A DNA stretch of 64,000 nucleotides from Pseudomonas sp. MAG733B (GTDB lineage: Bacteria > Pseudomonadota > Gammaproteobacteria > Pseudomonadales > Pseudomonadaceae). Positions 2,012 through 17,036 of this stretch are shown here, in pieces (the first letter of the stretch is position 1; every line of letters begins with the position of its first letter). The DNA lies in contig NZ_CP145732.1 of assembly GCF_036884845.1 (NCBI RefSeq), positions 2,914,001 through 2,978,000 on the forward strand, in the 5' to 3' direction. A program made the position numbers and the translations under genes. The notes under the pieces were generated by a model. That model was not told where the DNA came from. It did no database searches and saw only the letters and a program-made list of their open reading frames with translations.

Positions 2012-3460
2012 TTACTGCTGCAACACTGTTGCCTGGTTGGCCGTACCAAACTGCTGCACGTTGGCGTTCTGGTAGTTGCCACTCTGATCAACACTGGCAA
2101 TGTTGCCGGTGCCGCCCTGGGTGACGTAGGCCACGTTCATGGTGTCAGCCTGTTTGATGGTGATCATGTTGTCGTCGCCATACACCTGTGCGGTGTACGC
2201 CTGGTTGCCGAGACCTTCCTGGTTGAACTCGGTGCTGTTGCCGGTGCCGTTGGTGCTGCCCTGGGCCAGGTTGGTGGTGCCGCGCTGGTCGGAGATCAGG
2301 ATGTTGTCGCTACCGTTCTGGTCGAAGTACAGCTCGTTGAACGAGTTGGTCTGGCTGACCGTGGTTTTGTTGCCGGTACCGGTCTGGTTGGTGGTCATGA
2401 TGTGGCCAATGCCGTCCTGGGTGAAGCTGGCGATGTTGCCATTGCCGGCCTGGTTGACGGTGGCGCGTTGGTTGCTGCCGAACTGGCCGCCCAGTTGCGG
2501 GCCTTTCCAGTTGCTGGCGTAGACCTTGTTGTCATTACCCACCGAGTTGGCGTTGAGCACATGGCCGTCGCCAGTCTGGTAGGTGAAGTGCACGTTGCCG
2601 GTGCCCTGTTGATAGAGCGCGACGGTGGAGCCCAGCGATTCGAACTGGTCGGCGTAGATGGCGTTGAGGTCGCCGACTTGCAGCACGGTGGCCACGTTGT
2701 CCTGGCCGAAGCTCTGGTCGACGATGGCTTCGTTGGTCTGCCCGTACTGGTTGATGGTGGCCTGGGCGTTGATCTGGGTGTCTTGCCAGACTTCGGTGCC
2801 GTTGCCGTCGCCGTACTGGTTGATGGTCAGGGTGCCGCCTTCGCCATAGCGCTGGTCGCCATAGGCATAGTTGGTGCTGCCGGCCTGGTTGATGTTGATC
2901 TGGCCGCCCATTTGAGCAATCTGTTCGGCGGTCGCGTAGTTGGCGGTGCCGTACTGGATGATCACGGCGTTGTTGGCCATGCCCAGCTGGATCTGTTCGA
3001 TGTTGGCTTCGTTGCTGTCACCGTACTGGTAGGTCTGGCCGGATGTGTTTTCCTGGCTGTCCTGATAGATGAACGAGAAGTTGCCGCTGCCTTGCTGCAG
3101 TTGCAGGGCTTCGCCGCCGCCGACACCGATCGATTGACTGGCATGGCTGACGTTGGCGCTGCCGGTCTGGGTCTGGGTGATGGTGCTGTTGTCTTCGTAC
3201 AGTTGCTCGGCGTAACCGGCGTTGTAGTCGCCGACCTGGGTCTGGGTAATGGTGCTGGTCGCGTGGTCTTGCACGGCGGCCGCGTCATTGCCCGAGCCGA
3301 GTTGCTGCTGGGTGGCGGTACTGAACGGCGCCGCGCTCTGTTTCACATCGGCGATGTTGGCGGTACCGAACTGGTTCTGGATGGACTCGCTGTCATCGGC
3401 CAATGCCTGGGCACTGATTACGACCAGTATGGCGGCGGTTATGGGCGTCAGTTTGAACAT
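2012..3460 (-). CDS. csgA: Curlin-repeat amyloid subunit, CsgA-like (large)
   Basis: A Sec signal peptide (residues 1-21, ending AQALA) precedes about twenty degenerate curlin repeats of roughly 23 residues with the pattern Q-x-G-x-x-N-x-A-x-x-x-Q (for example QQGSGNFSFIYQ, QYGTANYATAEQ, QAGNGNIASFTQ). At 482 residues it is about three times E. coli CsgA, which has five repeats. The predicted product is a secreted amyloid fibre subunit. It lies 27 bases after the CsgB-like gene and ends at the bidirectional terminator. No csgE, csgF or csgG is in the window, so the export system must be elsewhere or different. Probably the last gene of the sigma54-driven unit that starts at 7617. Confidence 0.85.
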   Translation of the reverse strand: MFKLTPITAAILVVISAQALADDSESIQNQFGTANIADVKQSAAPFSTATQQQLGSGNDAAAVQDHATSTITQTQVGDYNAGYAEQLYEDNSTITQTQTGSANVSHASQSIGVGGGEALQLQQGSGNFSFIYQDSQENTSGQTYQYGDSNEANIEQIQLGMANNAVIIQYGTANYATAEQIAQMGGQININQAGSTNYAYGDQRYGEGGTLTINQYGDGNGTEVWQDTQINAQATINQYGQTNEAIVDQSFGQDNVATVLQVGDLNAIYADQFESLGSTVALYQQGTGNVHFTYQTGDGHVLNANSVGNDNKVYASNWKGPQLGGQFGSNQRATVNQAGNGNIASFTQDGIGHIMTTNQTGTGNKTTVSQTNSFNELYFDQNGSDNILISDQRGTTNLAQGSTNGTGNSTEFNQEGLGNQAYTAQVYGDDNMITIKQADTMNVAYVTQGGTGNIASVDQSGNYQNANVQQFGTANQATVLQQ

Positions 3461-3487
3461 GATGAAACCTCCAAGTGGTGCAGTGCT

Positions 3488-3949
3488 TTAGCGATATTGA
3501 GTGACCGAGACGCTCATTCCATTGCCTGCCTGGGTCACAGCGGCTTGCTGACCCGTGCCGGCCTGGACGATGTTGGCGTCGTTGTTGTTGCCGTTCTGGG
3601 AAATCTGCGCACGGTTGTGGCTGCCCGATTGGGTAATCGATGCGGCGTTGCCGGAACCCTGCTGGTTGATCAATGCCATCAGGTCGCTGCCTTGTTGCAG
3701 GATGTAGGCTTCCTGATTGCTGCCCGACTGCACAATCTGGCCGAGCAGCGATTGGCCGTTCTGTTGCAACAGCGCGATGTTGGCCTGGCCGTTCTGGTCG
3801 ATCAGTGCTTGCTGGCCCACCGGAGGTGGCAGCTCGCCGAGATCGGCGCCGGGCGCCAGGTCATCGTTCTCCATCAAATCGTCGGCGCGTACGCCTGCGC
3901 TGCTGCAAAGCAGAAGCAGGCAGAGCAGGGCGGCGGTCGACGTTTTCAT
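3488..3949 (-). CDS. csgB: Curlin minor subunit / nucleator, CsgB-like
   Basis: This 153-residue exported protein has a signal peptide (ALLCLLLLCSSAGVRA), an acidic linker (about 23-45, DDLMENDDLAPG), then about five curlin repeats (IDQNGQANIALLQQNG, QSGSNQEAYILQQG, QQGSGNAASITQSG, QNGNNNDANIVQAG). It ends in a short VSVTQYR tail. Length and order (B before A) match CsgB, the surface nucleator of curli. A strong GC hairpin sits between it and the upstream Ig-like gene. Assignment as B rather than a second A subunit rests on size and order. Confidence 0.8.
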   Translation of the reverse strand: MKTSTAALLCLLLLCSSAGVRADDLMENDDLAPGADLGELPPPVGQQALIDQNGQANIALLQQNGQSLLGQIVQSGSNQEAYILQQGSDLMALINQQGSGNAASITQSGSHNRAQISQNGNNNDANIVQAGTGQQAAVTQAGNGMSVSVTQYR

Positions 3950-3974
3950 GGCCTTGTCCTTTGGTTGAGGGCTT

Positions 3975-4003
3975 GCCCCACCAGCCGGGTCGGCCGGTGG
4001 GGC
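3975..4003. promoter_or_regulatory. Intercistronic GC-rich hairpin
   Basis: GCCCCACC (3975-3982) pairs with GGTGGGGC (3996-4003), extended by an inner GCCG/CGGC. There is no T-run, so it is not a classic terminator. It may set the ratio of amyloid mRNA to the upstream secreted-protein mRNA by processing or by protecting the 3' part. Confidence 0.6.
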
Positions 4004-4009
4004 GAGCGC

Positions 4010-6235
4010 TTACTGCACGGTGACGTTGATGGTGCGTACAGAGCCCGGTGTGGATCGGATGGTCGCCGTCGGGTTGACCGATGGGACGACCGCGTTCGTG
4101 ACGTTCAAGGTCCAGCGCCCGGTAATTGCCACGTTGGCGGTGCCCAGGGTGACCAGACCGGTCGGCGTGGTGACCTGGATGGTCACGGTGTTGCCGAGGA
4201 TCGTCGAGGACGTACCGGTGAAGTTCCAGGTAAAGCGGTTGCCGGCACGTGCGGTGACGGTGGCAGCCGTTACGTTGAAGACTTCAAGCACCAGAGGGGG
4301 TGAGACTTGCACCGTGACGGTGACCGGTGCCGACAGGGCGCCGAGGCTGTCCCGTGCGACATAGGTAAAGGTCGTGGTGAAAGGCGCGAGGATCACCGCC
4401 GGAGGCGTGTAGGTCACTGCCGTGCCATTGATGGCCACGGCGCCGCGAAGAGGCTGCGTCACGCTGGCGATAGCCAGTGGTCCGTTGCCGTCCGGATCGC
4501 TGTCGTTGCCCAACACGTTGATGTTCACTGCGGCGGTGCCCTGGGTCGAGATGCTGTCAGCCACACCCACCGGCGCCAGATTAGGCGGCGGATTCACGGT
4601 GACAGTCACGGTCGCCGCAGTGGTCGAGGCCAGGCCTTTGGCGTCTTGAGCCTTGTAGGTGAAGGTCGCGATCAACGGAGCAGTAACCACCGCCGGCGGG
4701 GTATAGATCACCGTTGAAGTGCTGCTCAATGCCACGGAGCCGCCACCGACCGCTGGGGTCAACGACGAGATGCTCAGTGGCGTGTTGTTGTCCGGATCGT
4801 TGTCGTTGGCCACCAGGTTCAGGGTGACGGGAACACCAGCGGTGGTGGTGCCACTGTCGGCGACAGAGATCGGCGCCTGGTTTTCACCGGTGTCCGGCGC
4901 AGTACCGACCACTACGACCGGCTCGGTATCGCTGCCGCCCGAGGCCGATTTGATCGTCACGGTGGCTGGTGGCTGAGTCAGGTCGGCGACGGTCAGGCGT
5001 TGCAGGGTGCCGGACTTGGTCAACCGTCCGTAGCCTTGGGCAACCATGTCCGGTACCACCACTTCGTCAGACGAGGTGGCTTCGATCAGCAGGCTGTGAT
5101 TGCTCCAGTTGTAGCGAGCGGTCTGCACTTTCACCACGTCAGAGACTTTGCTGGATACCGCGGTCGGCCGGTTGGTGCTGGTCGGATCCGTTGCGGTGAC
5201 TACCACCACCGGAGGTACGGTGCTACCGGTCAGGCGATGGCCGAAGAACTGGCCAGTGTTGTCGCCGAGCATGCCGGTCAGGCATGGCGTTTGTGGTGGT
5301 CCGGCAACCAGGGCCACGCTTTCGCGGAAGCACAGGACCGAATTGTTCGCCGATTTGCCGAACACTTCGACCCGGGTACCAGAAGCGACGCGACGGTAAG
5401 TCGCGCGACCGATCTCCACAGCGGTTTGCGCGCGGCTGTCGAGGATCTTGCCGGACACGGTGAAGAGGTTGGTCTGGATGGTCCCGGGCGGGCCCACGAT
5501 GCGCAGGAAGTTGGTGTTGTTGGGGCTGCCTTTGATCGCCTCGGTGAGGTTCGGATCACCGACGAAGGTTTCGATGGCGCCGGTTTCCGGGTTCACTTCG
5601 GTGTAAGGGCCGTTGACACTTTGCAGGAACGGTCCGACGTCACCATTGAGCGCGCCGCTGAAGTTGCCCGGTGCGCCGATGCCGATGTCGCGGGTGATGT
5701 TGATCGCCCGACGGCCCGGGGTGGTGACGTTGACCGTTTCCACACCGTACGGGTGGGTGATGGTGTAGGTCCCGGCAACAGGCACGTTCACCCGCAGACG
5801 AATCCGCGCGAAGCTTGCCTGGTCGCCGTCGATTGGGTCTTCGGCAGAGAATGCCGCTTCGATCCCGGCCACATAGGCGTCCACGCCATACCCACCGACA
5901 TCGTTGATGCTGGTTTCGGCGAGGAACCAGAAGGCTTCCGGTGGCCAGTTATCCGGGAACACGATCGGCAACGTGTCATCGAAAAAACCGGGTTCCGGAT
6001 TCAGGATGCACATGTAGGTGGGAGCGCCCGGTGCGGTGGGTGAGCGCGAGCTGGTTGCCTTCGACTGACACAGTTCCAGTTTCAGCAGACTGCTGTCCTG
6101 GTACCACATGGGGAATTTCCCCGTGGCGAAGGTGTAGGGGCCGGGGTCGACGGCAGCGAGTTGCGCGAACGCACTGCCAGTTAGCGAGAGAGTCAGCCCG
6201 AGCGCGTTGAGCGCGAAGCGTGGCCACTTGTTCAT
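4010..6235 (-). CDS. Large secreted protein with two tandem Ig/cadherin-like modules
   Basis: The product has 741 residues from the ATG at 6235, which has a strong AGGAGG site. A longer reading frame has no ribosome site. After a signal peptide (LTLSLTGSAFAQ) comes a ~310-residue domain shared with the next upstream gene (DIGIG, GPFLQSVNGPYTE, FVGDPNLTEA). Two ~95-residue modules follow, each with NxAP...DNDPD or NDSDPD and TFTYxAxD, typical of bacterial Ig/cadherin-like adhesive domains. A C-terminal beta-rich domain ends the protein. It starts 36 bases after its paralogue and precedes csgB, suggesting a cell-surface or matrix role. I do not recognise the shared N-terminal domain. Confidence 0.8.
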   Translation of the reverse strand: MNKWPRFALNALGLTLSLTGSAFAQLAAVDPGPYTFATGKFPMWYQDSSLLKLELCQSKATSSRSPTAPGAPTYMCILNPEPGFFDDTLPIVFPDNWPPEAFWFLAETSINDVGGYGVDAYVAGIEAAFSAEDPIDGDQASFARIRLRVNVPVAGTYTITHPYGVETVNVTTPGRRAINITRDIGIGAPGNFSGALNGDVGPFLQSVNGPYTEVNPETGAIETFVGDPNLTEAIKGSPNNTNFLRIVGPPGTIQTNLFTVSGKILDSRAQTAVEIGRATYRRVASGTRVEVFGKSANNSVLCFRESVALVAGPPQTPCLTGMLGDNTGQFFGHRLTGSTVPPVVVVTATDPTSTNRPTAVSSKVSDVVKVQTARYNWSNHSLLIEATSSDEVVVPDMVAQGYGRLTKSGTLQRLTVADLTQPPATVTIKSASGGSDTEPVVVVGTAPDTGENQAPISVADSGTTTAGVPVTLNLVANDNDPDNNTPLSISSLTPAVGGGSVALSSTSTVIYTPPAVVTAPLIATFTYKAQDAKGLASTTAATVTVTVNPPPNLAPVGVADSISTQGTAAVNINVLGNDSDPDGNGPLAIASVTQPLRGAVAINGTAVTYTPPAVILAPFTTTFTYVARDSLGALSAPVTVTVQVSPPLVLEVFNVTAATVTARAGNRFTWNFTGTSSTILGNTVTIQVTTPTGLVTLGTANVAITGRWTLNVTNAVVPSVNPTATIRSTPGSVRTINVTVQ

Positions 6236-6270
6236 GATGCCTCCTGATGCAGATCTGGGCATGAGAGCGT

Positions 6271-7617
6271 TCATTGCACGATGACCACTTCTTCGGTGTC
6301 GCCGCCGCCATTGGATGACGCCACGTGAACCTTGGCCGGTGGAATCGGCGTAATGCCGGTCGTCAGGTTTTTCACCGCGCCATCGCCGCTGAGGGCGCCG
6401 ATGGCGACCCCGTTGCCGGTGGTGACGGTGAGGACCGGTGGCGAAGTTTCATCACTGGTCGAAGCCACGACAGTGATCTGTCCGCTGCTCAGGCTGTACT
6501 CGGCCTTTGAAATCACGACGAGGTCGGTCAGCGGCATGGACAAGGAGGTGGGTGTGCTGGTCGCGATGGCCAGATGGTTGTCAGCCGTCACCACCAGGTT
6601 GTTCGGCAACGTCGGGTTGGTGGAGGACTGTGCGTACCAGTGGCCGGCGGTGTTGGCCTCGGTCAGGTTCAGCACTGGGCTGTTGCTGTCCAGCGTCACG
6701 ATGGCCGGTGGCGGTGGCGCCATCACGAAAACGTCTTGTTGCGCCACCGGTGCGCTGGCACCGGCTTTACGCGAGTACGTGCTGCGTTCGGCGATGATCG
6801 GAGTTGGGCGGACTACCGTCGACAACTTGCCGGAAATGGCCATCACCGTGGTGCGCAAGTCCAGTCCGTTGGGCCCTTCGATGCGGATAAAGTTGGTGTT
6901 GAAAGGGCTGCCGGTGAAGGCTTCTTCCAGGTTTGGATCGCCAACGAACTGCTCGGCTGCACCGGTGACCGGGTTGGTCTCGGTGTAGGGGCCGTTGACG
7001 CTGCGCAGGAACGGACCGATGTCGCTTTTGAGTGCGCCATCGTAGGTTTTCGGTGTGCCGATACCGATGTCCCGGGTCATGTTGATCGCGCGGCGACCAC
7101 CGGCGGGCACGTCGAAGATGTCGACGCCGTAGGGGTGGGTGATGGTGTAGACACCGGCGGTGGGCACGTCGACCCGAATACGGATACGGCCAAAACTGAC
7201 CTGATCGCCTTCTTTCGGTTCTTCTGCGGCAAAGGCGGCTTCTACGGCGCTGACATAGGTCAGGTCGATGCCTCGGGCAGCGTCGACGATGGAGCCGTCG
7301 CCGGTAAACCAGAACGCTTCATCGGGAAAGTTGGTCGGGAAAACGATGGGTTGTGTATCGTCGAAAACACCAGGAACGGCGCCCAAAAGGCACATGTAGG
7401 ACGGCGTGCCGGGGACGCCAGGAACCCTTGAACTGACAGCTTTTGTCAGGCACAGATCAAGGGTTCGACCATGGGTGTCCTGATACCAAGAGGCGAAGCC
7501 ACCCGTGGCTGGTACGTAGGGGCCGGGATCTACAGCAAACAGCGCAGCCTGGGCAGCGCCTTGGGCCAGAGCGCTCACGATCAGGGCGATCGTGGTTTTG
7601 GACAGTAAAGGGTGCAT
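6271..7617 (-). CDS. Secreted protein of unknown function, paralogue of the downstream Ig-like protein
   Basis: The 448-residue product starts at the ATG at 7617, preceded by GAGGGA. The upstream reading frame extends into the promoter region and is rejected. A signal peptide (ALIVSALAQGAAQA) leads to a domain with AVDPGPYVPATG, WYQD, two conserved Cys regions (LCLTKA, YMCLLG), DIGIG, GPFLRSVNGPYTETNP, FVGDPNLEEA and GSPFNTNFIRI. The same motifs occur in the neighbouring gene. It ends in DTEEVVIVQ. It is the first gene after a sigma54 promoter at 7676-7691 and probably begins a unit ending in csgA. No enzyme motif was seen; inferred to be extracellular or periplasmic. Confidence 0.75.
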   Translation of the reverse strand: MHPLLSKTTIALIVSALAQGAAQAALFAVDPGPYVPATGGFASWYQDTHGRTLDLCLTKAVSSRVPGVPGTPSYMCLLGAVPGVFDDTQPIVFPTNFPDEAFWFTGDGSIVDAARGIDLTYVSAVEAAFAAEEPKEGDQVSFGRIRIRVDVPTAGVYTITHPYGVDIFDVPAGGRRAINMTRDIGIGTPKTYDGALKSDIGPFLRSVNGPYTETNPVTGAAEQFVGDPNLEEAFTGSPFNTNFIRIEGPNGLDLRTTVMAISGKLSTVVRPTPIIAERSTYSRKAGASAPVAQQDVFVMAPPPPAIVTLDSNSPVLNLTEANTAGHWYAQSSTNPTLPNNLVVTADNHLAIATSTPTSLSMPLTDLVVISKAEYSLSSGQITVVASTSDETSPPVLTVTTGNGVAIGALSGDGAVKNLTTGITPIPPAKVHVASSNGGGDTEEVVIVQ

Positions 7618-7675
7618 GAGTATTCCCTCTATCAGAGTACCTGCCCCTTGGATATGGGTCAGTTGACAGGGCTTC

Positions 7676-7691
7676 GGCAACTCCCATGCCA
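7676..7691 (-). promoter_or_regulatory. Sigma54 promoter for the secreted-protein/curlin operon
   Basis: Read on the minus strand the site is TGGCATGGGAGTTGCC, which fits TGGCAY-R-N4-TTGC with the GG and GC doublets at the correct 10-base separation. Predicted initiation is about 48 bases upstream of the 7617 ATG. The adjacent regulator gene mnxR encodes a sigma54 activator. Confidence 0.75.
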
Positions 7692-7743
7692 ACCGCAGAA
7701 AACGGCCGTGAGAGGCCCGGCGCACAGGCGTTTGCCCGGCGCT

Positions 7744-7829
7744 GGGGAAGGGTTTCCCCGGATATGGGAAAGGGGCTCTTTCCCCAGGATTGGGGGTAGA
7801 TGGGGGCAATGGGGCAGGGTGGGGGAAAG
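7744..7829. promoter_or_regulatory. Clustered GGGGAAAG/CTTTCCCC boxes, candidate MnxR upstream activator sites
   Basis: Inverted repeats GGGGAA-N4-TTCCCC (7744-7759) and GGGAAAG-N5-CTTTCCC (7766-7784), plus a half site GGGGGAAAG (7821-7829), lie 50-150 bases upstream of the sigma54 promoter. This is the distance expected for enhancer binding. The same boxes occur upstream of the multicopper oxidase promoter. Confidence 0.6.
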
Positions 7830-7899
7830 AAGCCCGCCGTCAGGCAAACTGCCAGCAGTGGGCTATAAACCTTGTAAGGGATTTCCGGGAACAACATCC

Positions 7900-9348
7900 A
7901 TGACCACGCTTGCAAAGACACTGGCCACCGACAAGGCTGACATTCGCTTGAGCACGCGCAAACAGCCGTTCAACCTGCTGCGCTGGTTTTCGCTGATCAG
8001 CATGGCGGTGATCGGCACCGTGGCGGTGGCGTTGGGTTCGGTGTCAACCAAATTCGTGATTACCGAAAGCGTGCAACGCGATGCGCTGTTGACGTCGCAA
8101 TTCATCCAGGCGATCGCCTCCGCCGAGGTGCGCCACGTGTCGATTCCCAACGTGCGGACCATGGGCGAGCTGCTCGACCCGCGCAAGGACCGCGACTTTC
8201 CCGAGGTTGACCCGCTGGCCCGCGCCAACGCCCGGGGCGAATTCCTCGATCACATCGAACACTTGCCGGACGTGATCCTCGCCAACATCTATGCCCCCGA
8301 CCGCATGATCATCTGGTCGACCAATCCGGCCCTGATGGGCACCACGATTCATGTCGATGACGATCTGGACCAGGCCTTCGCTTCGAAGCAGCCCGTGTCG
8401 GCCAGTTATCACGATGTCGACCATGCGCGCATGGAACAGAAGTTCATCACGCCACCGGAATACATCTTCATCGAAAACTACATTCCGCTGTTCGATGCCG
8501 ACGGCAACAACGTCACGGCAATGGTCGAGATCTACAAGGAGCCCAAGGACCTGATCAGTCGCATGGAGCGCGGGCTGGTGTTGATCTGGCTGGCCACGGC
8601 GTTGGGTGGCGGGCTGATTTACCTGGGGTTGTACTGGATCGTGCGCCGGGCGGCGATTCTGCTGGCGACCCAGCAAAAGCAACTGATCACCAACGAAACC
8701 TTTGTCGCCTTGGGCGAGATGTCATCGGCGGTGGCTCATAGCCTGCGCAATCCATTGGCGACCATTCGCTCCAGCGCCGAGCTGGCACTGGAATTCGACA
8801 GTGGTCCGGCGCACAAGAACATCAACGACATCATCGGTCAGGTCGATCGCATGTCGAAGTGGGTACGCGAGTTGTTGCAATCCTTGCGACCGCTCAATGA
8901 CGATGCCGAACCGGTCAACCTGGTAGCGTCGTTGCACGACAGCCTCATGGCGTTCGAGCAGCAGATTGCCAAGGGTCGGGTCAACGTAGTGTTCGAGCCC
9001 AAAGAGACACCGATGGTGTTGAGCCAGCAGGTGCAGCTCACGCAGATCCTCAACAGCTTGCTGGCCAATGCGCTGGAAGCGATGGACGAAGGCGGCACGC
9101 TGGCCATTACCCTGGAGCCGACCGATGCCCGTGGCGTGTGCGTGGTGGTCAGCGACACCGGCAAAGGCATGACCGAAGAACAGCGCGCCATGGCGTTCCG
9201 TCCGTTCTTCACCACCAAGCAGGGTGGGCTCGGCGTCGGGTTGGTGCTGGTCAAGCGGATCATGGAACGCTTCGGCGGCTCGGTGACCCTCGATAGCCGC
9301 GAAGGCGAGGGCACCAGTGTCCGTCTGTCGTTCAAGTTGGTTCCCTGA
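7900..9348 (+). CDS. mnxS1: Membrane sensor histidine kinase, MnxS1-like
   Basis: The start chosen is the ATG at 7900, giving 482 residues; an in-frame extension to 7612 has no support. One TM helix lies at about 28-50. A ~170-residue periplasmic sensor domain follows, then a second TM at about 228-252, an HisKA domain with His280 (AHSLRNP), and an HATPase domain with DTGKGMT and GGLGVGLVLVKRIMERFGG. It is a close paralogue of the kinase at 13577, sharing the sensor and TM layout. With that kinase and the sigma54 regulator at 15039 it matches the MnxS1/MnxS2/MnxR set needed for Mn(II) oxidation in P. putida GB-1. The gene name is by this arrangement, not by alignment. Confidence 0.7.
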   Translation: MTTLAKTLATDKADIRLSTRKQPFNLLRWFSLISMAVIGTVAVALGSVSTKFVITESVQRDALLTSQFIQAIASAEVRHVSIPNVRTMGELLDPRKDRDFPEVDPLARANARGEFLDHIEHLPDVILANIYAPDRMIIWSTNPALMGTTIHVDDDLDQAFASKQPVSASYHDVDHARMEQKFITPPEYIFIENYIPLFDADGNNVTAMVEIYKEPKDLISRMERGLVLIWLATALGGGLIYLGLYWIVRRAAILLATQQKQLITNETFVALGEMSSAVAHSLRNPLATIRSSAELALEFDSGPAHKNINDIIGQVDRMSKWVRELLQSLRPLNDDAEPVNLVASLHDSLMAFEQQIAKGRVNVVFEPKETPMVLSQQVQLTQILNSLLANALEAMDEGGTLAITLEPTDARGVCVVVSDTGKGMTEEQRAMAFRPFFTTKQGGLGVGLVLVKRIMERFGGSVTLDSREGEGTSVRLSFKLVP

Positions 9349-9352
9349 CAAT

Positions 9353-9401
9353 GGGGGCGAACTTTCCCCGTTAGCGGGTGTCATTCCCCAGTCGTTTTCC
9401 C
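9353..9401. promoter_or_regulatory. CTTTCCCC boxes upstream of the multicopper oxidase
   Basis: GGGG-N9-TCCCC spanning 9353-9369 and containing CTTTCCCC (9362-9369), with half sites ATTCCCC (9383-9389) and TTTTCCC (9395-9401). They lie about 75-125 bases upstream of the sigma54 promoter at 9478 and repeat the motif seen at 7744-7829. Confidence 0.55.
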
Positions 9402-9477
9402 AAGGCATGGCACATTGATGTTGATAAGCCATTGTTTTGTTGGTTATTAATACTTTTGTAAAAAGCAGTTACAAATT

Positions 9478-9493
9478 TGGCGAGCTCCTTGCA
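9478..9493 (+). promoter_or_regulatory. Sigma54 promoter for the multicopper oxidase
   Basis: TGGCGAGCTCCTTGCA matches the -24 TGG/-12 TTGCA pattern with correct spacing. Initiation is predicted about 30 bases before the ATG at 9535. Confidence 0.75.
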
Positions 9494-9534
9494 AAACCCC
9501 CATCACCCCCTTCACGCATACGAGGCGGCTGGTG

Positions 9535-12342
<2,808 letters not shown>

Positions 12343-12359
12343 ACCGGGAGGGTGTCGAC

Positions 12360-13475
12360 ATGAAGCCGCATACACCACGCACACGTGCCTTGGGCATGCA
12401 TCTGGTACTGGTGCTGGCGACCTGTTTGCTGGCCAGCCAGCTACTGGTCGCCAACCCGGCGCCGCCGACACCCGAACCCACCCCCGCACCGGCCGCCACG
12501 GCGGCTACGGCATCCACCTCGCAATCCGCCACCCCGTGGGGTGGCGACTATTTCCCCAACACGCTGCTGACTGACCAGAACGGTCGGCAGGTGCGTTTTT
12601 TCGATGACCTGATCAAGGGCAAGGTGGTGGTGATCAACTTCATCTTCACCTCGTGCAGCGACTCTTGTCCGCTGGAAACCGCACGCCTGCGCCAGGTGCA
12701 AAAGTTGCTCGGCGACCGGGTCGGCAAGGACATCTTTTTCTACTCCATCAGCATCGATCCGTTGAGCGATACCCCAGCGGTGCTCAAGGCCTATGCGCAA
12801 CGCTTCCAGGTCGGGCCGGGCTGGCAGTTCCTCACCGGGGAATTTGCCGACGTCACCGAACTGCGGCAGAAGCTCGGTTTGTTCATCGAAGGCGTCGACA
12901 ACGGTCGCAGCAAAGACCACAACCTGAGCCTGATCGTCGGTAACCAGGAAACCGGACGCTGGATGAAAGCCTCGCCTTTCGAGAACCCGTGGATTCTGGC
13001 CGATCAATTGGCAAACACTTTGCATAACTGGAAACAACCGAGCATCGCGGAAAGTTACGCCAATGCTCCTGAAATTCGTCCGCCGAGTAATGGCGAAGAA
13101 CTGTTCCGCACCCGTTGTGCGTCGTGCCACAGCCTTGGCCCACTGGACGGGCAGGGCATCGGCCTGCGCAGCATTGGCCCGGACCTGATCGGCGTGACAC
13201 GCCAACGCGATCCGGCGTGGCTCAACCGCTGGATTCGTGAACCGGACCGCATGCTTGCCGAGAAAGACCCGATCGCCATGGAGCTGTTCGAACGCTTTGA
13301 CAAGATCCCCATGCCCAACCTGCGCATGGACGAGCATTCGGCGCAGTCGATCATTGAGTTTTTGCAAGAGGAAACCGATCGCCAACATCCGCCGGTAACA
13401 CCGTTGACCGCCGGTAACGAGGAGCCCGAACACCACCATGCCATTGCAGCTCCCGACCAGACCCGGGTGCAATAG
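12360..13475 (+). CDS. SCO1/SenC domain fused to cytochrome c
   Basis: The 371-residue product has an N-terminal signal anchor (about 12-31) and a Pro/Ala linker. A SCO1/SenC thioredoxin-like domain follows with the copper motif Cys99-x3-Cys103 and His187 (SKDHNLSLIV). The C-terminal class I cytochrome c domain has CASCH (253-257) and a likely axial Met318 in IPMPNL. The start at 12360 has GGGAGG eight bases upstream, 17 bases after the oxidase stop. SCO proteins deliver copper; the haem domain could accept electrons. Together they suggest copper loading and an electron outlet for the upstream oxidase. This partner role is inferred from position. Confidence 0.85.
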   Translation: MKPHTPRTRALGMHLVLVLATCLLASQLLVANPAPPTPEPTPAPAATAATASTSQSATPWGGDYFPNTLLTDQNGRQVRFFDDLIKGKVVVINFIFTSCSDSCPLETARLRQVQKLLGDRVGKDIFFYSISIDPLSDTPAVLKAYAQRFQVGPGWQFLTGEFADVTELRQKLGLFIEGVDNGRSKDHNLSLIVGNQETGRWMKASPFENPWILADQLANTLHNWKQPSIAESYANAPEIRPPSNGEELFRTRCASCHSLGPLDGQGIGLRSIGPDLIGVTRQRDPAWLNRWIREPDRMLAEKDPIAMELFERFDKIPMPNLRMDEHSAQSIIEFLQEETDRQHPPVTPLTAGNEEPEHHHAIAAPDQTRVQ

Positions 13476-13498
13476 TGGCGAAATACCTCCATTGCTCA

Positions 13499-13516
13499 GG
13501 CATTGCGATCAATGCC
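13499..13516. promoter_or_regulatory. Perfect inverted repeat upstream of mnxS2
   Basis: GGCATTG-CGAT-CAATGCC lies about 60 bases before the mnxS2 start in the only gap of this gene string. Possible operator or mRNA hairpin. It does not match the GGGGAAAG boxes, and no sigma54 promoter was found here. Confidence 0.35.
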
Positions 13517-13576
13517 ACCTACACTGATTCGAAACACGGCTGAAAAGGCTTGAATACCAGCAACCAGGACAGTCCC

Positions 13577-15070
13577 ATGCAGACACTGGACGAACAAAAA
13601 AAACCTGCGCCGAGTGCACCGGCAGCAGAAGGCAAGGATTGGCGGCCGCCGTTCAATCTGGTGCGCTGGTTCTCGTTGGCGAGCTTTTTCATCATTGCCG
13701 CGGTGGCGCTGGGGCTGGGCTACATTTCCACGCGTTTTGTGGTGGAAGAGAGTATCGAGCGCGATTCAATGCTGACCGCGCAGTTTGTTCAGGCCATTGG
13801 CGAGGCCGAAATTCGTCATGCCCAGATCACGCCGACCCGGACCATGGGCGAGATGCTCGACCCGCGGGATGAAAACGCTTACCCCGATGTCGATCCAGCG
13901 GCCCGTGCATCTTCGCGCATCGAGTTTCTCGACCATGTGGAGCATCTGCCGGACATTCTGCTGGCCACGGTCTATGCGCTGGATCGCACGGTGGTGTGGT
14001 CGACCAACCCGGAACTGATCGGCGTGAAGATTGAAGACGACGAAGAGCTGGACGAGTCCTTCGAAATGAAGGAACCGGTGTCCACCAGTTACCACGAAAT
14101 CGATGAGGAGCGTCCCGAGCAACGTTTGCTGCGTGAACCGCAATACCTGTTCATCGAGAACTACATCCCGATGTTCAACGCCGACAAAAGCAAAGTGATT
14201 GCCATGGTCGAAATCTACAAGGAGCCGGCGGATCTGGTGGAACGCATCCAGCGCGGGTTCAAGTCGATCTGGCTGGCGACCCTGCTCGGTGGCGCGGCGA
14301 TTTACCTCGGACTGTTCTGGATCGTGCGGCGCGCGGCCATGCTGTTGCAGAGCCAGCAAAAACAACTGGTCGCCAACGAAACCTTTGTCGCGCTAGGGGA
14401 AATGTCCTCGGCGGTTGCCCACAGCCTGCGCAATCCGCTGGCGAACATCCGCTCCAGCGCCGAACTGGCCCAGGAAATCGCCAGCCAGAGCGCGCAGAAA
14501 AACATCGGCGACATCATCAGTCAGGTCGACCGCATGTCACGCTGGGTCCGCGAGTTGCTGGTGTCGTTGCGCCCGGTCAATGACGACTACGAAGAGGTCG
14601 ATCTGGTGCTGGCCATCGACGATACCCTCGGCGCCTTTGAACCGCTGATCAAACGCTCGAACGTCGAGGTGCGCTTCACGCCGAAAAGCGTTCCACCGGT
14701 CGTCAGCCAACAGGTGCTGCTCACGCAGATTCTCAATAGCCTGTTTGCCAATGCCCTGGAAGCCATGCCCAAGGGCGGAGTGTTGAGTATCGAGATTGAA
14801 ACACCGGCGCCGGGGCAGGTATGCATGATCCTCAACGACACCGGCAAAGGCATGACCAAGCAGCAACAGCAAATGGTCTTCAAGCCGTTTTTCACCACCA
14901 AACAAGGAGGGTTGGGCGTAGGCCTGGCCCTGGTCAAAAGAATAATGGAGCGTTTCGAAGGTTCGGTCGAACTGACCAGCCAGGAGCAGGAAGGAACCCG
15001 CGTAAGTCTGAACTTTAAAGTAGCAACGGGAGGGGAATATGGAGCACAGCATACTGCTGGTCGAGGATGA
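13577..15070 (+). CDS. mnxS2: Membrane sensor histidine kinase, MnxS2-like
   Basis: The 497-residue product starts at ATG 13577 (AGGA seven bases upstream); a TTG 27 bases earlier is less likely. Layout: TM at about 29-52, periplasmic sensor region, TM at about 230-252, HisKA with His282 (AHSLRNPLANIRSS), and HATPase with NDTGKGMT and GGLGVGLALVKRIMERFEG. It is highly similar to the kinase at 7900 throughout, including the periplasmic part (FLDHVEHLPDILLATVYALD versus FLDHIEHLPDVILANIYAPD), so the pair arose by duplication. It overlaps the regulator gene by 32 bases, indicating co-translation. Confidence 0.72.
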   Translation: MQTLDEQKKPAPSAPAAEGKDWRPPFNLVRWFSLASFFIIAAVALGLGYISTRFVVEESIERDSMLTAQFVQAIGEAEIRHAQITPTRTMGEMLDPRDENAYPDVDPAARASSRIEFLDHVEHLPDILLATVYALDRTVVWSTNPELIGVKIEDDEELDESFEMKEPVSTSYHEIDEERPEQRLLREPQYLFIENYIPMFNADKSKVIAMVEIYKEPADLVERIQRGFKSIWLATLLGGAAIYLGLFWIVRRAAMLLQSQQKQLVANETFVALGEMSSAVAHSLRNPLANIRSSAELAQEIASQSAQKNIGDIISQVDRMSRWVRELLVSLRPVNDDYEEVDLVLAIDDTLGAFEPLIKRSNVEVRFTPKSVPPVVSQQVLLTQILNSLFANALEAMPKGGVLSIEIETPAPGQVCMILNDTGKGMTKQQQQMVFKPFFTTKQGGLGVGLALVKRIMERFEGSVELTSQEQEGTRVSLNFKVATGGEYGAQHTAGRG

Positions 15071-16469
15071 TGAACTCCTCGCCGAGAATATTCAGACTTA
15101 CCTGGAGCGCAAGGACTTCGAGGTGACTGTCTGCCACTCGGCTGAAGACGCACTGGATCAATTGAAGACGTTCTTGCCTGACGTGGTGCTGACCGATAAC
15201 TCGTTGCCGGGCATGAGTGGTCACGATCTGATCCAGAAGCTGCGCATCAACGCGCCGGATCTGAAAGTGATCATGATGACCGGCTACGGCAACGTCGAAG
15301 ACGCCGTCGTGGCGATGAAGGAAGGCGCGTTCCACTACGTGACCAAACCCGTGGCTTTGCCGGAGCTCAAGTTGCTGCTGGACAAGGCGTTGGCCACCGA
15401 ACGCATGGAACGCACGCTGTCGTTCTATCAGGAACGCGAAGCGCAGAAATCCGGGGTTCAGGCACTGATCGGTGATTCCGCGCCGATGGTCTACCTCAAG
15501 GGCACCATCGCCCAATTGCTCGACGCCGAACGCCGAATGGCCAACTCCGACCTGCCGCCGGTGCTGGTGGAAGGCGAGACCGGCACCGGTAAGGAACTGG
15601 TGGCCCGCGCCCTGCATTTCGATGGCCCGCGCAGCAAAGGGCCGTTCATTGAGTTCAACTGCGCCTCGATTCCTTCCAACCTGGTGGAGTCGGAGCTGTT
15701 CGGCCACGAGAAGGGCGCCTTCACCGACGCCAAGGATCGTCGCGTGGGGTTGGTGGAGGCGGCCGACGGCGGCACACTGTTCCTCGATGAAGTAGGGGAA
15801 ATGGATCTGATTCTGCAGGCCAAGCTGCTGAAGTTGCTGGAAGACCGGACCATCCGCCGGGTCGGTTCGGTGAAGGAGCGCAAAGTCGATCTGCGGGTGA
15901 TCAGCGCCACCAACTGCAACCTCGAACAGATGGTCCAGCAGGGCAAGTTCCGCCGCGACCTGTTTTTCCGCCTGCGCATCATTTCGATCAAGGTGCCGCG
16001 CCTGTATGCCCGGGGTGAAGACATTCTGTTGCTGGCCCGGCATTTCCTGGGCACCCACGGCAAACGCTATGGCAAACCGCACCTGCGCTTCAGCGATCAG
16101 GCCGAAGATCTTCTGCTCAATTACACCTGGCCGGGCAATGTGCGGGAATTGCGCAACATGCTCGAACAGACCGTGCTGCTGGCCCAGAGCGACACCATTG
16201 CGGCCCATCAGTTGAATGTGTGCCTGAGCCTGGTGGATGAGCCGGCGATGTTTCAACACGAAATGCCACCCAGCGAACCGCGTCCGATCTACAACGGCAC
16301 CGAGTCGATGAACCTGCCGGAAGTCGAGCGTGACATGGTACGCAAGATGCTCGACAAGACCGACTGGAACGTCACCAAGTCCGCACGGCTGCTGGGCCTG
16401 AGCCGCGACATGCTGCGTTACCGGATCGAAAAACTGGGCCTGGCGCGTCCGGACAAACGGCAGTGGTAG
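15039..16469 (+). CDS. mnxR: Sigma54-dependent NtrC-family response regulator, MnxR-like
   Basis: Receiver domain 1-120 has acidic Asp10/Asp11, phosphoacceptor Asp53, Thr81 and Lys103. The AAA+ domain has Walker A GETGTGKE (179-186), the sigma54-contact loop GAFTDA (226-231, usual form GAFTGA) and Walker B GGTLFLDE (244-251). A FIS-type helix-turn-helix lies at about 440-470 (KSARLLGLSRDMLRYRIEKLGL). GGGAGG precedes the ATG, which lies inside mnxS2. The product activates sigma54 promoters when phosphorylated; two such promoters lie in this locus (9478 and 7691). Naming follows the MnxS1/S2/R arrangement. Confidence 0.75.
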   Translation: MEHSILLVEDDELLAENIQTYLERKDFEVTVCHSAEDALDQLKTFLPDVVLTDNSLPGMSGHDLIQKLRINAPDLKVIMMTGYGNVEDAVVAMKEGAFHYVTKPVALPELKLLLDKALATERMERTLSFYQEREAQKSGVQALIGDSAPMVYLKGTIAQLLDAERRMANSDLPPVLVEGETGTGKELVARALHFDGPRSKGPFIEFNCASIPSNLVESELFGHEKGAFTDAKDRRVGLVEAADGGTLFLDEVGEMDLILQAKLLKLLEDRTIRRVGSVKERKVDLRVISATNCNLEQMVQQGKFRRDLFFRLRIISIKVPRLYARGEDILLLARHFLGTHGKRYGKPHLRFSDQAEDLLLNYTWPGNVRELRNMLEQTVLLAQSDTIAAHQLNVCLSLVDEPAMFQHEMPPSEPRPIYNGTESMNLPEVERDMVRKMLDKTDWNVTKSARLLGLSRDMLRYRIEKLGLARPDKRQW

Positions 16470-16475
16470 CGTTGC

Positions 16476-16859
16476 CTACAAGGCCGGGCTCTGCCCGCTC
16501 AAGCACGCCAGCATGCAGGTCGGGTCGATGACCTCCTGGTTCACGTAGACGCCGCGCTCCTCATCGTAGGTGCGAATGAACACACGAACGGTGGCATCGG
16601 CTACCGTCGGCAACCGCGAGTCGGAAAACACGTGCTCGCTGGACACCGGGATGAACGTCTGGGGTGACGTCGAAATGTAGGCCCCCGGTGGCACTGTGCT
16701 CAGTGAGGGCGGCGCGGGGTGGGCGAAGGGTTGGTCGGCCCCGTAATAGTGGAATTCAGTGGTCGATTGGTCGGTTTGCATCAGGCTGTCGTCCGCCTGT
16801 GCCCAAGTGGCGGTGGTCAGGCAAAGGGCAAGCAACAGCGTTTGTTCGGTCTTCTTCAT
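16476..16859 (-). CDS. Small exported protein of unknown function
   Basis: The 127-residue product starts at 16859. A longer frame to 16904 lacks a ribosome site and would bury the signal peptide. The signal (LLLALCLTTATWAQA) is followed by DDSLMQTDQSTTEFHYY, a Pro-rich stretch, and a segment VRVFIRTYDEERGVYVNQEVIDP ending in CMLAC, a possible disulfide. It is convergent with mnxR with only six bases between stops. No known family was recognised. Location beside the Mnx-type cluster is suggestive only. Confidence 0.65.
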   Translation of the reverse strand: MKKTEQTLLLALCLTTATWAQADDSLMQTDQSTTEFHYYGADQPFAHPAPPSLSTVPPGAYISTSPQTFIPVSSEHVFSDSRLPTVADATVRVFIRTYDEERGVYVNQEVIDPTCMLACLSGQSPAL

Positions 16860-17036
16860 GGCAGCACCTGCGGCATCGGATTTCGCGCATATCCCCAAGG
16901 CCATTAACTATAGCGTTCCCGTGGGCAAGCGTCGGCGGGGTGCGGTTTACAAGATCGCAACAAAAGCCTGATGGGGCTGTTTCAAACCATGATCTAGACT
17001 CGGGCCTCAATCAAAGACCCGATACTGGAGCGTGCA

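Follow-up and report, generated by a model that had tools for sequence, protein, structure and literature searches.

In Pseudomonas sp. MAG733B and its relatives, one promoter architecture, a sigma54-type -24/-12 site with an inverted repeat (dyad) CCCC-N6-GGGG/T above it, precedes four operons, and in this genome it is nearly unique to them. As the curlin operon (P448-P754-csgBA) and the mcoA operon have this architecture in common, the regulator MnxR likely activates both, along with mnxG and a type II secretion-csgEFG operon. From the DNA and its conservation, we regard a manganese oxidase/curli regulon as well supported. What is new here is the coupling of the manganese oxidases to curli; control of mnxG and mcoA by MnxSR and the gene order of the locus were already known. 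A first-pass annotation had put the oxidase and curli-like genes under a single MnxR/sigma54 switch. This reading is supported by synteny and by the rare common promoter architecture, and further backed by retention of that architecture where the curlin operon has moved and by the tight association of curlin with mnxG in both presence and loss. The link extends further than was seen at that time, since the mnxG and type II secretion-csgEFG operons share the architecture.

Gene content of the locus

The window analysed is a stretch of 64,000 nt (NZ_CP145732.1, 2,914,001-2,978,000, forward strand) of the 6.65 Mb genome; its relevant features are listed in Table 1. Two paralogous HisKA kinases and an NtrC-type regulator had been assigned to a MnxS1/MnxS2/MnxR layout, and together with mcoA and SCO1 they follow the published order. 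In MnxR, receiver, AAA+ sigma54-interaction and Fis-type helix-turn-helix domains were all found. The sigma54-contact loop, canonically GAFTGA in NtrC-type activators, reads GAFTDA, as it does in 67 of 68 relatives; in the remaining one, a loop was not found. McoA carries the four copper-site motifs typical of multicopper oxidases, which are present in 80 of 80 relatives as well.

Table 1. Features of the mnx-curlin locus (positions are those of the window)
Feature	Position	Strand	Remarks
csgA-like curlin gene	2012..3460	-	482 aa; PF07012 3.7e-22
csgB-like curlin gene	3488..3949	-	153 aa; PF07012 1.4e-19
P754	4010..6274	-	secreted-looking, bacterial Ig/cadherin-like repeats; PF17963, PF17803, PF17892
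P448	6271..7617	-	secreted-looking, gene 1 of curlin operon; no Pfam or NCBIfam match
Predicted sigma54 -24/-12 site TGGCATGGGAGTTGCC	7676..7691	-	74 nt before P448
Inverted repeat CCCCAATCCTGGGG	7782..7795	-	CCCC-N6-GGGG; predicted MnxR site of curlin operon
mnxS1-like sensor histidine kinase gene	7900..9348	+	HisKA, HATPase_c
Inverted repeat CCCCGTTAGCGGGT	9366..9379	+	CCCC-N6-GGGT, one half imperfect; predicted MnxR site of mcoA
Predicted sigma54 -24/-12 site TGGCGAGCTCCTTGCA	9478..9493	+	before mcoA
mcoA-like multicopper oxidase gene	9535..12342	+	935 aa; Cu-oxidase_2 7.7e-9
SCO1/SenC + cytochrome c domain protein gene	12339..13475	+	PF02630 1.8e-20, PF00034
mnxS2-like sensor histidine kinase gene	13550..15070	+	HisKA, HATPase_c
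mnxR-like NtrC-type response regulator gene	15039..16469	+	Response_reg PF00072, Sigma54_activat PF00158, HTH_8 PF02954
CsgE, CsgF, CsgG	just outside window (L094)		PF10627, PF10614, PF03783

Both curlin proteins score above the cut-off for the PF07012 curlin repeat, and the CsgA-like protein contains 22 matches to [QS]xGxxN, many of them spaced by about 23 residues. We call the system curli-like because the two proteins remain below the cut-offs of the NCBIfam CsgA model (5e-38, 130.4 bits; equivalog cut-off 160) and CsgB model (89.3 bits; cut-off 165).

Promoters and inverted repeats

The divergent sigma54 promoters lie exactly where the first-pass annotation had placed them, each with GG at -24, GC at -12 and ten bases between. 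With one mismatch allowed, the whole window contains 12 sigma54 matches against 8.9 expected, no more than chance, and the case for the promoters rests therefore on their position and conservation. The form TGGYR-N7-TGC occurs in 1.65% of dinucleotide shuffles, per intergenic region. A TGG(C/T)A site was found in 61/61 orthologous curlin promoter regions, with a -12 element of TTGC (41), CTGC (1), TTGT (7) or GTGT (12), i.e. GC at -12 in 42 regions and GT in 19. These 19 belong to species of a group that we informally label P. koreensis-like; the dyad stays in them, and the altered -12 element weakens the sigma54 reading of their curlin promoters. Of 68 mcoA regions, 67 have their best GG/GC site 24-64 nt upstream of the estimated start, the exception being L019.

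The paired boxes proposed upstream of these promoters are present at the places given (CTTTCCCC at 7778-7785, GGGGAAAG at 7822-7829, CTTTCCCC at 9362-9369), but they occur in no more than 22/61 curlin and 37/68 mcoA orthologous regions. The 20-base regulator box GGGGAAAG-N5-CTTTCCC has one perfect match in the window (7766-7785) and four with up to three mismatches, which is near chance (2.04 expected). We therefore rejected it, poorly conserved as it is, in favour of the CCCC-N6-GGGG/T inverted repeat that overlaps it and lies some 75-100 nt upstream of the -24/-12 site. Conservation between species, named by the first-pass annotation as its test, holds for the overlapping dyad and, the 19 altered -12 elements apart, for the promoters; that of the boxes is poor. 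In a loose form the dyad is found in 61/61 curlin and 66/68 mcoA regions. The strict form CCCCNANNNTGGGG is present in 55/61 curlin regions, against 0.18 expected in shuffles, and in 0/68 mcoA regions; 62/68 of the latter contain CCCCN6GGGK, for which single-base shuffles give 0.36/68.

Four operons with one architecture

The strict dyad, a pattern derived from the curlin site, was found at 8 sites (9 rows) in the 6.65 Mb genome, compared with 4 rows for the pattern read backwards. Two further sites lie before mnxG and before the type II secretion-csgEFG operon. The other five (L098-L102) are over open frames and show no sigma54 match at the spacing of the island, in a scan that did not re-find the minus-strand site of L098. 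A composite pattern of dyad plus sigma54 site gave six matches in the genome and none in the backward control. Four of the six precede mnxG, the type II secretion-csgEFG operon, P448-P754-csgBA and mcoA; the fifth belongs to a di-haem peroxidase gene, and the sixth, at 3690677, overlaps a gene of the opposite strand and was taken as chance.

The mnxG gene, named by its size and neighbours, and the type II secretion-csgEFG operon are located just outside the window. The latter starts with a receiver-only regulator gene (RR), and T2SSE, PilN, T2SSM, secretin and pseudopilin motifs were detected between the mnxG operon and csgEFG. Two other candidates were not retained as members: P142 (16476-16904, minus strand) lacks a dyad, and of 15 loci examined 2 have a sigma54-like site; the second McoA paralogue (L096 here; L080 and L082-L086) lacks the dyad in 6 of 7 cases, L082 having one CCCC-N6-GGGG at a different position.

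Conservation and co-occurrence

For mcoA we considered 80 named loci, the best 80 of 594 confirmed; mnxS1 is located upstream of mcoA in 67 of these and is absent from this place in 13. Seven of the 67 end too early for the curlin side to be counted. All 60 with at least 5 kb of room contain divergent P448, P754, csgB-like and csgA-like genes; the csgA and csgB matches of one locus, L081, are fragments. The two other promoters were each counted in the 30 best loci plus nine fetched ones. The promoter of the RR-secretion-csgEFG operon has a sigma54 site in 39/39 and two dyads in 38/39 loci, and that of mnxG a sigma54 site in 39/39. Of the dyads, that of mnxG is the least conserved: among the 30 best loci it is near its usual place in 22, elsewhere in one and absent by the pattern used in seven, and it was found in six of the nine putida-type and divergent genomes, where some are loose or displaced.

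Across 298 genomes, curlin accompanies MnxG in 96 of 96 cases, compared with 7 of 202 genomes without MnxG; like all co-occurrence counts given here, these ignore descent, and the genomes are not phylogenetically independent. In 93 of 102 genomes, CsgG is encoded 8.2-8.9 kb below RR and in the same orientation. Where curlin is present without mnxR (n = 7), no strict dyad was found within the 10 kb fetched in any of the seven genomes.

Proposed regulation and alternative explanations

We propose that MnxS1 and MnxS2 likely phosphorylate MnxR when Mn(II) is present, and that MnxR dimers bound to the dyad would activate transcription by sigma54 polymerase, so that the mcoA operon, P448-P754-csgBA, mnxG and the type II secretion-csgEFG operon are switched on together. 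Judging from the product families (MnxG and McoA as Mn oxidases, SCO1 and cytochrome c as helpers for copper and haem, the type II apparatus, CsgEFG and the CsgA/CsgB-like subunits), oxidases and an amyloid matrix would then be placed outside the cell at the same time. As a speculation, the matrix may hold the oxide and the enzymes near the cell, or seed the mineral. If true, the making of a mineral would be tied to the building of a protein matrix, and the role of this matrix in mineral formation would be open to direct test via csgBA or the 14-base dyad.

Curlin operon and mnxS1 adjoin in most fluorescens-type loci, so their DNA features could be co-inherited. The two might be neighbours merely by common descent, with the curlin operon under its own control unrelated to manganese, a reading with which the changed -12 element of one clade would agree. 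However, in 11 of 11 sampled genomes whose curlin operon is away from mnxR (21 kb to 1.3 Mb, or on another contig), the sigma54 site and the dyad are kept, the latter strict in eight and one base off in three. Together with the recurrence of this architecture before mnxG and the secretion-csgEFG operon, and with the lack of curlin in all seven genomes that have mnxR and no mnxG, this makes simple neighbourhood very improbable. It also appears unlikely, if not quite to that degree, that the operons are co-regulated by some other sigma54 activator binding the dyad, with MnxR acting indirectly. Within the 298 genomes, RR, the marker of the secretion-csgEFG operon, occurs in 102 of 103 mnxR genomes and in 0 of 195 others, and the conserved block at mcoA contains no NtrC-type gene other than mnxR. 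Moreover, mnxR is needed for Mn oxidation in P. putida GB-1 (cited in PMC11409713; papers given by PMC number are drawn on here from the parts of their text available to us). The assignment of the dyad to MnxR is a prediction from sequence, and both this and the GAFTDA loop leave some room for another activator. So does the finding that, within colonies, mnxG and mcoA differ in when and where they are expressed (PMC11930936); further regulators may accordingly be involved.

Co-expression under MnxR would still allow different functions of the fibres. Tentatively, and as a proposal that falls somewhat short of probable, we consider MnxR to control a programme dedicated to making manganese mineral outside the cell, in which fibres, CsgEFG, type II secretion and the two oxidases form one regulon, and the amyloid would be an obligate partner of MnxG and a scaffold for Mn oxide, MnxG and amyloid being kept or lost as a unit. 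Alternatively, the curlins may be co-expressed for general biofilm adhesion in stationary phase, with Mn oxidation as a separate stationary-phase output and no oxide-holding matrix. We think this rather doubtful, though by no means far-fetched: curli are generally adhesion fibres (PMC3056050), and mnxG and mcoA are switched on in stationary phase (PMC11930936), yet curlin tracks MnxG rather than mnxR or the secretion genes. The seven genomes with mnxR and no mnxG (among them G223, 73% complete) retain mnxR and RR, and in six of them secretion genes beside RR, whereas curlin and a true CsgG are absent from all.

Relation to known systems

As in the curli of E. coli and P. putida, there are two curlin-repeat subunits and CsgE, CsgF and CsgG. 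In contrast to those systems, the subunit genes share an operon with P448 and P754, which precede them, the CsgA-like protein is longer with its 22 repeat matches, and csgEFG closes a type II secretion operon. Curli are known to be regulated by CsgD, whereas NtrC-type/sigma54 control is predicted here. It would represent curli that are controlled through NtrC/sigma54 and linked with an operon for type II secretion. In P. putida, csgAB and csgEFG were described as two clusters by Wu et al. (PMC3056050). The gene set of P. putida GB-1 reported by de Vrind et al. 2003 is type II-like as well; in the present genome, such a set is seen to adjoin csgEFG.

MnxSR is a positive regulator of mnxG and mcoA (PMC9765421), and Pseudomonas sp. 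MS-1 loses Mn oxidation when rpoN is disrupted by an insertion (PMC11409713). PmnxG and PmcoA have been predicted to be IHF-sigma54 promoters and require both Mn and stationary phase for activity; the sigma54 sites so predicted upstream of mnxG and mcoA agree with our own, whereas the common inverted repeat is not named in the available text, which calls both the regulation of bacterial Mn biomineralisation and its physiological function unknown (PMC11930936). MS-1 and DSV-1 share the order mnxS1-mcoA-SCO1-mnxS2-mnxR with our locus, and, like P. putida GB-1, a sigma54-type regulator and two multicopper oxidase operons; in GB-1, mcoA is at another place (PMC11409713). The available text of that paper contains neither curli nor amyloid, and thus describes no divergent curlin operon. 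P. psychrophila DSM 17535 (L032), a relative of MS-1 and DSV-1, has the same block including the curlin genes.

The first-pass annotation had taken the link to amyloid to be undescribed, and our full-text searches agree, with no curli-mnx link among the matches listed. PMC3056050 alone among these combined curli with mnxG, and treats them separately as far as its accessible text goes; no paper was retrieved that names amyloid and manganese oxide along with both Mn-oxidizing and Pseudomonas. Term searches found neither curli nor amyloid in the accessible portion of PMC11930936, nor curli in that of PMC9634551, and the part of PMC8218464 at hand added nothing on curli.

P448 and P754

Two structure models of P448 reached a pLDDT of 37 (model 1) and 50.6 (model 2); the latter, still of low confidence, shows an ordered, beta-rich structure in its C-terminal part alone. 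A PDB sequence search gave no convincing match, and among the 50 Foldseek matches listed the hits were generic Ig-like ones with a query TM of at most 0.20. Due to the low pLDDT and the generic matches, we rejected a fold assignment and built no claim on it. P448 has 1903 homologues out of 7998 candidates scored, mostly named "hypothetical protein" among the 120 matches listed. The N-terminal part of P754 is akin to P448: its residues 8-441 match the P448 gene of another locus (L234) with 47%.

Gene order and conservation of the locus

The window covers bases 2914001–2978000 of a one-contig Pseudomonas genome of 6.65 Mb. Its right-reading genes follow the order mnxS1-mcoA-SCO1-mnxS2-mnxR, as published for Pseudomonas sp. 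MS-1 and DSV-1 (PMC11409713). A homology search confirmed 594 stretches related to the mcoA locus, of which the best 80 were analysed. In 67 of these 80, mnxS1 lies upstream of mcoA, the other 13 mcoA copies being without it. In sixty of the mnxS1-bearing loci the sequence extends 5 kb or more past mnxS1 (seven are on contigs that end too early), and in all 60 the genes for the secreted-looking proteins P448 and P754, csgB and csgA are divergent from mnxS1; in one, L081, the csgA and csgB matches are fragments. Many mcoA loci retain a gene that converges on mnxR (16476–16904, minus strand) and encodes a small, secreted-looking protein; the protein is without a Pfam family, and the gene does not share the promoter architecture of the regulon.

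Features of the mnx-curlin locus and of related loci in the same genome (window coordinates unless a locus or contig is named)
Feature	Position	Strand	Remark
csgA-like	2012-3460	-	left-reading set; domain search
csgB-like	3488-3949	-	left-reading set; domain search
P754	4010-6274	-	left-reading set
P448	6271-7617	-	left-reading set
sigma54-type site TGGCATGGGAGTTGCC	7676-7691	-	curlin side
mnxS1	7900-9348	+	right-reading set; domain search
sigma54-type site TGGCGAGCTCCTTGCA	9478-9493	+	mcoA side
mcoA	9535-12342	+	right-reading set; domain search
SCO1/cytochrome c	12339-13475	+	right-reading set; domain search
mnxS2	13550-15070	+	right-reading set; domain search
mnxR	15039-16469	+	right-reading set; domain search
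RR-type II-like secretion-csgEFG operon	L094:4393-14013		~10.6 to 1.0 kb left of window; opens with RR, closes with csgEFG
Second McoA copy	L096, C1:4830231-4833011		1144-aa frame
Di-haem CCP_MauG gene	L203:3614-5737 (C1:3614-5737)	-	dyad + sigma54 layout TGGCAAATTAATTGC

Promoters of the curlin operon and mcoA

The first-pass annotation had placed one sigma54 site before the oxidase gene and another before the curlin genes; both positions were confirmed and both sites are of sigma54 type. Since one-mismatch sigma54 patterns are common in the window (12 observed, 8.9 expected), the case rests on position and conservation rather than on the raw match. On the mcoA side, the distance from the best site to the estimated start downstream of it is 24–64 nt in 67/68 regions (L019 being the exception). 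Ahead of P448, the -24 element TGG(C/T)A is present in 61/61 regions, and the -12 element reads TTGC in 41, CTGC in one, TTGT in seven and GTGT in 12, the last two variants (19/61) all stemming from a P. koreensis-like group (an informal label). The fixed pattern TGGYR-N7-TGC was found in 42/61 curlin regions (shuffles 1.06) and 53/68 mcoA regions (shuffles 1.3).

According to the alignment of orthologous intergenic regions, the conserved element further upstream is an inverted repeat. The GGGGAAAG/CTTTCCCC box that had been read from the single sequence overlaps these dyads, but is itself conserved in just 22/61 curlin and 37/68 mcoA regions. The curlin-side dyad (CCCCAATNCTGGGG-like, mostly 176–180 nt before P448) occurs in its loose form in 61/61 regions and in its strict form, CCCCNANNNTGGGG, in 55/61 vs 0.18/61 in dinucleotide shuffles. 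On the mcoA side, a CCCCGTTAGCGGGT-like dyad was detected in 66/68 regions in the loose form and in 0/68 in the strict form.

Curlin operons away from mnxR

Among 14 curlin regions hand-picked from putida-like and divergent genomes, 11 have the curlin operon apart from mnxR, either on the same contig (nine, 21 kb to 1.3 Mb away) or on another (two). All 11 keep the order P448-P754-csgB-csgA, with a TGGCAC-type sigma54 site 69–85 nt ahead of where P448 is matched. Their dyads, at -173 to -191, have the strict form in eight cases and deviate from it by one base in three. In G204 the operon, with sigma54 site and dyad, is adjacent to the mnxR locus. In G271 (L171) csgBA adjoins mnxS1 and P448-P754 is shortened by an internal deletion, with TGGTATGGAACTTGC and CCCCAACCCTGGGT kept ahead of it. 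The most divergent members, G027, G060 and G042 (MnxR identity 71–72%), show no mcoA between the curlin operon and the kinase-mnxR pair from which it diverges, and keep sigma54 site and dyad (one base off in G042). The last of the 14 regions, on contig 24 of G042, holds an additional, compact csg cluster that differs in type.

Genome-wide search

The strict dyad, as taken from the curlin promoters alone, occurs at eight sites (nine rows) in the 6.65-Mb genome, the pattern read backward giving four rows. Of the seven other sites, two are found to the left of the window, at distances of 10.8 and 22.8 kb. One of the pair stands 181 nt before the gene for a 1948-aa multicopper oxidase and has TGGCATGCAGATTGCT below the dyad; by size and neighbours (SCO1, SCO1, periplasmic binding/cytochrome c, SurA, the domain scan having skipped the gene directly after the oxidase) this is a putative mnxG. 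The other is followed 44 nt later by a second dyad and, below that, by TGGCATGAAGTGTGCG; downstream come genes for a receiver-only response regulator (RR) and for type II secretion, then csgE-csgF-csgG. As csgE and csgF start in ATGA overlaps with the preceding genes, csgEFG look like the end of the RR-secretion operon. No GspF-type domain was found among the scanned ORFs of this operon. TTTGCC repeats form a run (L094:14470–14560) that separates csgG from the gene at the window's left edge.

A composite pattern built from the mnxG, RR, P448 and mcoA promoters (CCCCN6GGGK, 74–104 bases, TGGYRN7TGC) has six matches in 6.65 Mb and none in the backward control: these four operons, one di-haem CCP_MauG gene and one site over coding sequence. 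For the RR promoter, sampled in the best 30 of 102 matches plus six putida-type and three divergent loci, a sigma54 site was present in 39/39 and two dyads in 38/39. The mnxG promoter has its sigma54 site in 30/30 best, 6/6 putida-type and 3/3 divergent loci; of the best 30 loci, 22 have the dyad close to its usual position, one has it elsewhere and seven lack it by the pattern used, and it was found in 6/9 putida-type and divergent loci, some loose or displaced.

Co-occurrence and loss

One draw of 298 genomes, with counts that take no account of descent, contained curlin in 103, MnxR in 103, MnxG in 96, RR in 102, McoA-type oxidase in 93 and true CsgG (E < 1e-40; weak paralogues raise the tally to 181) in 102. 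Curlin is present in 96/96 MnxG genomes vs 7/202 without MnxG. These seven curlin-positive genomes, which lack MnxR, have compact csg clusters and no strict dyad within the 10 kb examined. Seven further genomes carry MnxR without MnxG: RR is kept in 7/7, and curlin and true CsgG are absent in 7/7, an absence that is weak for G223 (73% complete). In six of these seven genomes type II genes adjoin RR (contig ends truncate three of the stretches), RR standing alone in the G266 stretch. Judged from MnxR identities of 92–93, 85, 78 and 67%, the seven genomes look like about four lineages rather than seven independent events. CsgG lies 8.2–8.9 kb below RR in 93/102 genomes; the nine exceptions are the seven MnxG-less genomes, G137 without a CsgG match and G076 with CsgG on another contig. 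A 34-residue csgG 3' remnant beside the type II genes in G163 (L232), P448-P754 retained without csgBA in G277 (L231/L236) and the internal deletion in G271 are traces of partial loss.

Proposed regulation

In the proposed scheme MnxS1/MnxS2, probably in response to Mn(II) during stationary phase, would phosphorylate MnxR; mnxG and mcoA reporters need both Mn and stationary phase (PMC11930936). Phosphorylated MnxR would bind the predicted dyad sites and, perhaps assisted by IHF bending as predicted for the mnxG and mcoA promoters (PMC11930936), activate sigma54 polymerase at mnxG, mcoA, RR-secretion-csgEFG and P448-P754-csgBA. Positive regulation of mnxG and mcoA by MnxSR has been reported (PMC9765421), and in MS-1 an rpoN insertion abolished Mn oxidation (PMC11409713). 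Two-component control of mnxG/mcoA (PMC9765421), the gene order of the mnx locus (PMC11409713), the sigma54 prediction for PmnxG and PmcoA (PMC11930936) and csgAB plus csgEFG in P. putida (PMC3056050) are already in print. As to the earlier statement that the amyloid link is undescribed, no coupling of curli to MnxSR was found among the matches listed from the open-licence literature that was searched.

Within this scheme, binding by MnxR, expression of the curlin genes and use of their fibres are inferences. Counter-points are the -12 change in one clade of curlin promoters, the weak mnxG dyad, the mcoA dyad being imperfect in one half, and the scores of the csgA-like and csgB-like proteins, which are below the cut-off. 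A further one is the MnxR loop: sigma54 activators usually have GAFTGA, whereas the window protein and 67/68 relatives have GAFTDA, which could be a variant sigma54 contact.

Further candidates

The CCP_MauG gene is likely a fifth target of the dyad/sigma54 architecture. It was found in 26/199 genomes, all 26 carrying mnxR; as the draw probably held 61 mnxR genomes, most of these are without it. Of its 26 promoters, 16 have a sigma54 site, 21 a dyad (in some cases at an unusual distance) and 15 both.

A second McoA paralogue (~73–78%) in L080 and L082–L086 is directly followed by sequence like the Ig-like C-terminal region of P754 (43–47%), a combination that may link an oxidase to a matrix-type domain; the second copy in the window's genome probably has the same continuation. 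Elsewhere on this contig (L204:2710–4858, C1:3690.7–3692.9 kb), three neighbouring exported-looking proteins are N/G/A-rich; neither of the two tested has a Pfam match. The trio might represent another fibre system.
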